This document shows, in pieces, positions 32,940 through 50,388 of a stretch of 64,000 nucleotides of DNA. Origin of the DNA: Apostichopus japonicus (taxonomy: Eukaryota; Echinodermata; Holothuroidea; Aspidochirotida; Stichopodidae). The notes under the pieces were generated by a model. That model saw only the letters and a program-made list of their open reading frames with translations. It ran no database searches and was not told where the DNA came from. The stretch is from NCBI RefSeq assembly GCF_037975245.1, contig NC_092582.1:25336077-25400076 (forward strand). The letters run 5' to 3'. The position numbers were made by a program, and so were the translations under genes. Each line of letters opens with the position of its first letter. Position 1 is the stretch's first letter.

Positions 32940-33100
32940 GACAATTCCCATGATGAGTTAACTGATAGAAGCTGATTGACTTCAATAGTTAGTATGGGCA
33001 GTCTACATCACCCATCTCCCAGACAATTCCCATGATGAGTTAACTGCTGGAAGCTGATTGACTTCAATAGTTAGTATGGGCAGTCTACATCACCCATCTC
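32940..33100. repeat. 82-bp tandem duplication of the ALDH9 stop codon and 3' end
   Basis: Two 79-bp copies, 32,940-33,018 and 33,022-33,100, are separated by 3 bp. They differ only around ACTGATAGAAG versus ACTGCTGGAAG. The right copy contains the last nine codons, the TAA stop and about 50 bp of 3' UTR of the dehydrogenase gene. The left copy repeats all of this inside the 3' UTR. Near identity means the event is recent. Confidence 0.95.

Positions 33101-50388: not shown

Follow-up and report, generated by a model that had tools for sequence, protein, structure and literature searches.

The window, by which we mean the whole 64,000-nucleotide stretch of DNA analysed here, harbors an intact ALDH9 gene on its minus strand (50388-33071), with a 512-aa open frame distributed over nine exons and with GT/AG introns. 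Over residues 26-510, i.e., nearly its full length, the product has its best solved-structure matches in 6qak and 6vwf (E about 1e-197), whose title, 4-trimethylaminobutyraldehyde dehydrogenase, places the gene in ALDH9 (trimethylaminobutyraldehyde dehydrogenase). Exons 1 (50226-50388), 3 (44196-44325), 4 (43209-43415), 6 (39891-40031) and 7 (38329-38517), all of them like the remaining exons on the minus strand, are without copies, and exons 2 (48082-48227), 5 (41064-41188), 8 (36710-36939) and 9 (coding part 33071-33278, with a TAA stop at 33073-33071) are those that are accompanied by tandem copies. A minisatellite of 20.7 units of 37 bp in intron 4 (41394-42193, minus strand) is not joined to any exon.

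Several other features surround the gene or are inserted in it. The window opens with a long satellite array of ~324-bp units (1-27682), and a nested minisatellite with 30-32-bp and 158-bp units lies downstream of ALDH9 (29439-31372). An element of ~1.2 kb at 44913-46110, whose inverted ends read CAGGCTTGGGG and whose 8-bp target duplication is ACTAGTAT, is missing from a second ALDH9 copy described below; a further element of ~1.4 kb at 50750-52144, recognised by eye, has the inverted ends TAGGGATGCACCGGAT and is bounded by the 8-bp target duplication CTTCCATG. Both are presumably hAT-like, judging by their features. On the plus strand at 54700-57200, open frames look by eye like those of a multi-pass membrane transporter gene.

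To find exon copies, each exon with 40 bp on either side was searched against its own gene with nhmmer, and exons with their flanks were also compared by BLAST (exon 6 with ±60 bp). These searches found tandem copies at exons 2, 5, 8 and 9, four of the nine. Within the gene in the window, further nhmmer matches at E<0.5 were absent for exons 1, 3, 4, 6 and 7, and a shuffled control (a single shuffle in two-base blocks) gave no match at this threshold for any of the nine exon queries. The exon 6 query with ±60 bp matched the 49-bp array of intron 5 owing to its intron flank and not to exon sequence, and a single 25-bp BLAST match at chance level (E 0.012) links exons 5 and 6. The second gene copy gave a chance-level exon 6 match (E 0.35) and an extra weak exon 5 match (E 0.06). 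At each of these four sites, the intact exon stands at one edge of its array, with all the extra copies that were found on the intron or UTR side of it. The earlier note on this DNA had reported copies at three of the nine exons, namely 2, 5 and 9, and had expected extra matches there above the background of the other exons. Such matches are seen in the exon-by-exon search, with the shuffle empty, and the count of three was too low, exon 8 having been missed. The observation of exon-linked tandem copies is thereby confirmed as real and understated.

At exon 2, the duplication lies on the acceptor side. Two minus-strand fragments are found upstream of the exon, of which copy B (48297-48396, E 6e-7) spans the acceptor, comprising the end of intron 1 and the start of exon 2, and retains an AG where the acceptor would be. 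Copy C (48424-48478, E 4.5e-6) holds the start of exon 2. The unit spacing is about 131-139 bp, in agreement with the 132-138 bp previously given for two fragments in intron 1, and both copies are found in the second gene copy as well.

Downstream of exon 5, three copies follow on the minus strand, and their identity to the exon drops with distance (68, 62 and 52%), the best stretch reaching 77.7%. Copy 1 (40820-40929, E 2e-12) is a decayed version of the 3' part of the exon, the donor and the start of the intron; copy 2 (40560-40714, E 4e-7) is also decayed, and copy 3 (40438-40557) is the most decayed and a weak match (E 0.007), the corresponding copy in the second gene matching better (E 9e-5). 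Intron 5 had been credited with two decayed copies of this exon: decayed tandem copies they are, and with the weak third one they number three. In the window only, the upstream part of copy 1 carries a 33-bp tandem duplication, and a ~20-bp tandem duplication in copy 1 is likewise missing from the second gene. The rest of intron 5 is a minisatellite with a 49-bp unit (40055-40420, minus strand), which ends 23 bp before exon 6. Of the 1032 bases that make up intron 5, 800 belong to exon 5-derived copies, to the intron start that was their template, or to the 49-bp array. In the second gene alone, ~273 bp are found between exon 5 copies (C22:26409264-26409537, L010); by eye, this insert resembles a short palindromic element that seems to recur near window 35260-35440.

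At exon 8, the junction duplication is itself the minisatellite, such that the proposal of a common process behind exon duplications and intron minisatellites holds good at this exon. The intron 8 array (35643-36714, minus strand, 41-47-bp unit) contains the exon 8 donor junction, each unit including the last 5 exon 8 bases (one mismatched in most units) followed by GTAGGTGTTACGG, and the exon 8 query finds 20 further matches in it (nhmmer, E<0.05). Twelve GTAGGT sites in the array, the real donor and 11 decoys, score above 0 with human 5' splice-site frequencies. Read-through past the real donor leads to an immediate in-frame stop. The length of the array is similar in both gene copies.

Exon 9 differs from the others in that the end of the coding sequence is involved. 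A tandem duplication of 82 bp with 2.1 units (32931-33100, minus strand) takes in the last 30 nt of the CDS with the TAA stop and then the start of the 3' UTR, and the exon 9 query matches at 33024-32949 (nhmmer, E 1e-16). This is the duplicated exon end with its stop codon that the earlier note had placed 82 bp away. The note had also described the events as lying at separate sites and being of clearly different ages, which agrees with the identities of the copies to their exons: 92-97% at exon 9, 75-81% at exon 2 and 52-68% at exon 5. Between the window and the second gene, the exon 9 duplication is near-identical (95/95 and 87/88 bases), so that gene conversion is possible there.

The second ALDH9 gene lies within C22:26400778-26422058, ~1 Mb away and in inverted orientation. 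It is intact and keeps its GT/AG sites, and 6 of 512 residues differ between the two products. The coding sequences differ at 35 of 1539 bases, 26 of the 35 at third positions, and the introns at 401 of 5551 sites, or 7.2% (six intron stretches, 5.5-9.3% each). The two intact genes apparently form part of an inverted segmental duplication of ~21-23 kb near a contig end (C22:25363758-25386691 and C22:26400778-26422058). The ~324-bp satellite also abuts the inverted second gene, from C22:26422122 onward, in the same strand orientation. Beyond window 50615 there is no match to the sequence flanking the second ALDH9, which speaks for a segmental duplication, and it is less likely that the second copy is a haplotig instead of a paralog; the exon copies are real in either case.

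The duplications at exons 2, 5, 8 and 9 are all common to the second intact gene. They thus predate the gene duplication (or the split of the alleles), provided that the second gene is not a misplaced allele and that no duplication was spread by gene conversion, a possibility at exon 9. Of the minisatellites, the 37-bp array counts 20.7 units in the window and 41.2 in the second gene copy, and the 49-bp array also differs in length between the copies; neither spans an exon edge. Together with the 33-bp and ~20-bp duplications found in the window only, these differences indicate that the duplication process went on.

A third locus came to light when the genome assembly (35 sequences with a total of 671,581,487 bases) was searched with the intron 5 stretch. 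Seven matches resulted, those outside the window and the second gene being two at C22:23.445-23.448 Mb. The latter region (C22:23445200-23451459, L038 and L039), of which 4.1 kb were read, comprises two occurrences of exon 5, together with exons 7 and 8, fragments of exons and minisatellites. The two occurrences of exon 5, flanks included, are separated by 2.4 kb and are 96% alike, and behind each lies another exon 5-like copy, one of which matches at E 6e-7, the other at E 0.004-0.016 with exon 5 queries and at 2e-6 with the copy 2 query. Exons 7 and 8 come after exon 5, and the exon 8 piece matches twice among the best candidates scored. Exon 8 is cut short and is followed by its own fragments (54 bp, 92.6% identical to its own exon 8) and a minisatellite. 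The locus behaves like a decayed ALDH9 gene that has exon-linked duplications of its own.

How did these exon copies come about? We think it quite likely that they go back to ordinary short tandem duplications, with units of about 40-260 bp, which by chance extended across exon edges and whose remains survive. The copies would then most likely be a harmless side effect of this duplication process. A duplication across a junction would leave one complete exon-junction-intron arrangement, since with a donor-spanning unit the first donor would still join the intact exon, and with an acceptor-spanning unit the last acceptor would do so. Splicing and protein would be expected to stay normal despite the decoy sites, and the spare copy would turn into neutral intron, whereas duplications inside an exon would alter the protein and be purged. 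As the spare copy decays and the exon is constrained, old events may be recognisable for longer at exons than in introns. Repeated rounds could turn some duplications into minisatellites, as in intron 8, and could lengthen the intron, as is suggested for intron 5 by its being made up mostly of exon 5-derived copies and a minisatellite. This chain of steps is deduced from the sequence, and three observations speak against an entirely neutral reading: the GT in exon 5 copy 3, the AG in exon 2 copy B and the mostly kept frame of exon 5 copy 2.

In the earlier note, the ALDH9 locus itself was regarded as prone to short tandem duplication, i.e., as a hotspot. We consider such a hotspot unlikely, though some figures point in its direction. 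The exons of ALDH9 overlap clusters of local direct repeats in 4 of 9 cases, versus 1.10 expected from randomly placing nine exons of the same lengths in 18 non-satellite stretches of the genome (P(>=4)=0.017), a modest excess that was singled out in hindsight. A possible local excess is best supported by the repeat-covered fraction, which amounts to 17.5% of the ALDH9 gene versus 7.3% of the 18 stretches, and the decayed third ALDH9 also has copies of exons 5 and 8. However, the window was picked for its unusual look, and the exon-linked events are common to the two intact genes and therefore represent few independent events. Furthermore, twenty arbitrary 10-kb stretches (200 kb), two of them pure satellite with one cluster each and the other 18 being those used for comparison, contain 40 clusters, with 0-4 per stretch. 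Measured in the same way, the 17.3 kb of the ALDH9 gene contain 6 clusters, including one within a transposon-like element; the exon 9 cluster, which extends beyond the stretch tested, is not in this count. The interpretation in the earlier note is thus supported only in part: that this locus stands out finds no support, the sampled stretches commonly having such duplications, and its greater repeat-covered length makes some local excess possible.

Other exons of the genome provide a further comparison. We used 31 control exons, 26 of them from the 57 Cpn60_TCP1 matches listed and 5 from other-ALDH loci, with L008 left out as a near-duplicate of L007. One of the 31 overlaps a cluster versus 4.11 expected; in this comparison, the controls were represented by HMM-match spans with 15 bp added on either side, instead of by full exon models, and the ALDH9 exons were unpadded. 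This lies below expectation and argues that exons are not uniformly easy sites of duplication. The lone overlap (L034) was rejected as an exon copy, being an intronic repeat that starts ~14 bp past the donor and does not span the exon. An exon edge of L037 has a match 4.3 kb away (E 7.9e-8), and L035 (E 0.026) and L037 (E 0.003) have weak matches on the opposite strand, none of which is a local direct repeat. When all exons are pooled, 5 of 40 overlap a cluster (4 of 40 if the intronic case is set aside) versus about 5.2 expected, as in random placing.

Tandem exon duplication can give rise to alternative exons, and exon 5 resembles such cases in that exon copies with flanking intron lie in tandem. 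Copy 2 has an exon 5-like frame over most of its length in both gene copies, which in the second gene extends up to the lost donor and in the window meets a 5-bp insertion near its end, and copy 3 still has GTGAGC at the donor position. It is nevertheless very improbable that the copies of exon 5 serve, or served until recently, as mutually exclusive exons. Copy 1 has an in-frame TGA stop, the GT donor is gone from copies 1 and 2, and no acceptor is recognisable by eye at the exon 5 copies. The differences in copy 2 are spread over the three codon positions (13/10/18 in the second gene, 14/11/16 in the window) and are not concentrated at third positions. No exon 5 copy combines an open frame with both splice sites, and unlike alternative exons they have the look of pseudoexons.

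That the exon copies are assembly artefacts is scarcely credible, since the same copies, independently diverged, are present in the inverted second gene ~1 Mb away; the 52-81% identity at exons 2 and 5 is also unlike misassembly, and an artefact is strongly disfavoured for exons 2, 5 and 8. Nor do we see any real prospect that they derive from a dispersed repeat family resembling exons: the two extra genome matches to the exon 5 stretch, which might suggest one, both lie inside the decayed third ALDH9 together with exons 7 and 8, and the duplicated segments of exons 2, 5, 8 and 9 gave no match at E<1e-3 when compared with 30 other loci and with window positions 1-32800 and 50701-64000.

Short tandem duplications spanning exon edges have a counterpart in amphioxus. 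Two reports describe 'mirages', tandem repeats across exon-intron boundaries, in Adh3, the globins BflGb6 and BflGb9, TnC and PGBD5 (PMC3087553, PMC3902484). There as in ALDH9, the units include an exon edge with its splice signal, on acceptor as well as donor sides, the copies lie beside an intact exon, and unit sizes are similar (10-160 bp in amphioxus). In ALDH9, units span the exon-intron boundary at the acceptor of exon 2 and at the donors of exons 5 and 8, and the authentic exons and splice sites are intact in both gene copies (512-aa frame, GT/AG). The ALDH9 case differs in that it concerns another animal, that four such structures are found in one gene, that they are mostly old and decayed, and that one of them, at exon 9, spans the stop codon and UTR instead of an exon-intron boundary. 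On the basis of their sequence, we would regard the ALDH9 repeats as the same kind of structure as the amphioxus mirages. Among the open-licence papers listed in our literature searches, none deals with mirage-named repeats outside amphioxus.

Two further systems bear on this comparison. As reported for a potato gene, a tandem duplication of this sort, crossing an intron-exon boundary as in ALDH9, can create an intron (PMC4974935). Whereas a new intron arose in potato, none is seen in ALDH9: the nine-exon frame is intact, the units already hold intron sequence, and the gene model has no extra coding exon and no new intron between exon copies. Intron gain was accordingly rejected for intron 5, whose units carry the donor and intron sequence, such that the intron existed first. 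Internal tandem repeats that change gene structure have been reported in human, in a study that resembles ours in dealing with tandem repeats inside genes and in comparing paralogs (PMC2812944).

In this context, one may speculate that the introns of this animal generally grow outward from exon edges via junction-spanning tandem duplication, as in amphioxus, a generalisation that we regard as doubtful at present. If it were true, the process would perhaps be widespread in deuterostomes with long introns, and decayed exon ends in introns would constitute a readable fossil record of intron growth. With four mirage-type structures compared between two intact genes and a decayed third, the ALDH9 genes indicate that such repeats can be old leftovers. 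Survivorship offers a simple explanation for them, and intron growth may become datable by virtue of one copy being fixed by coding constraint.
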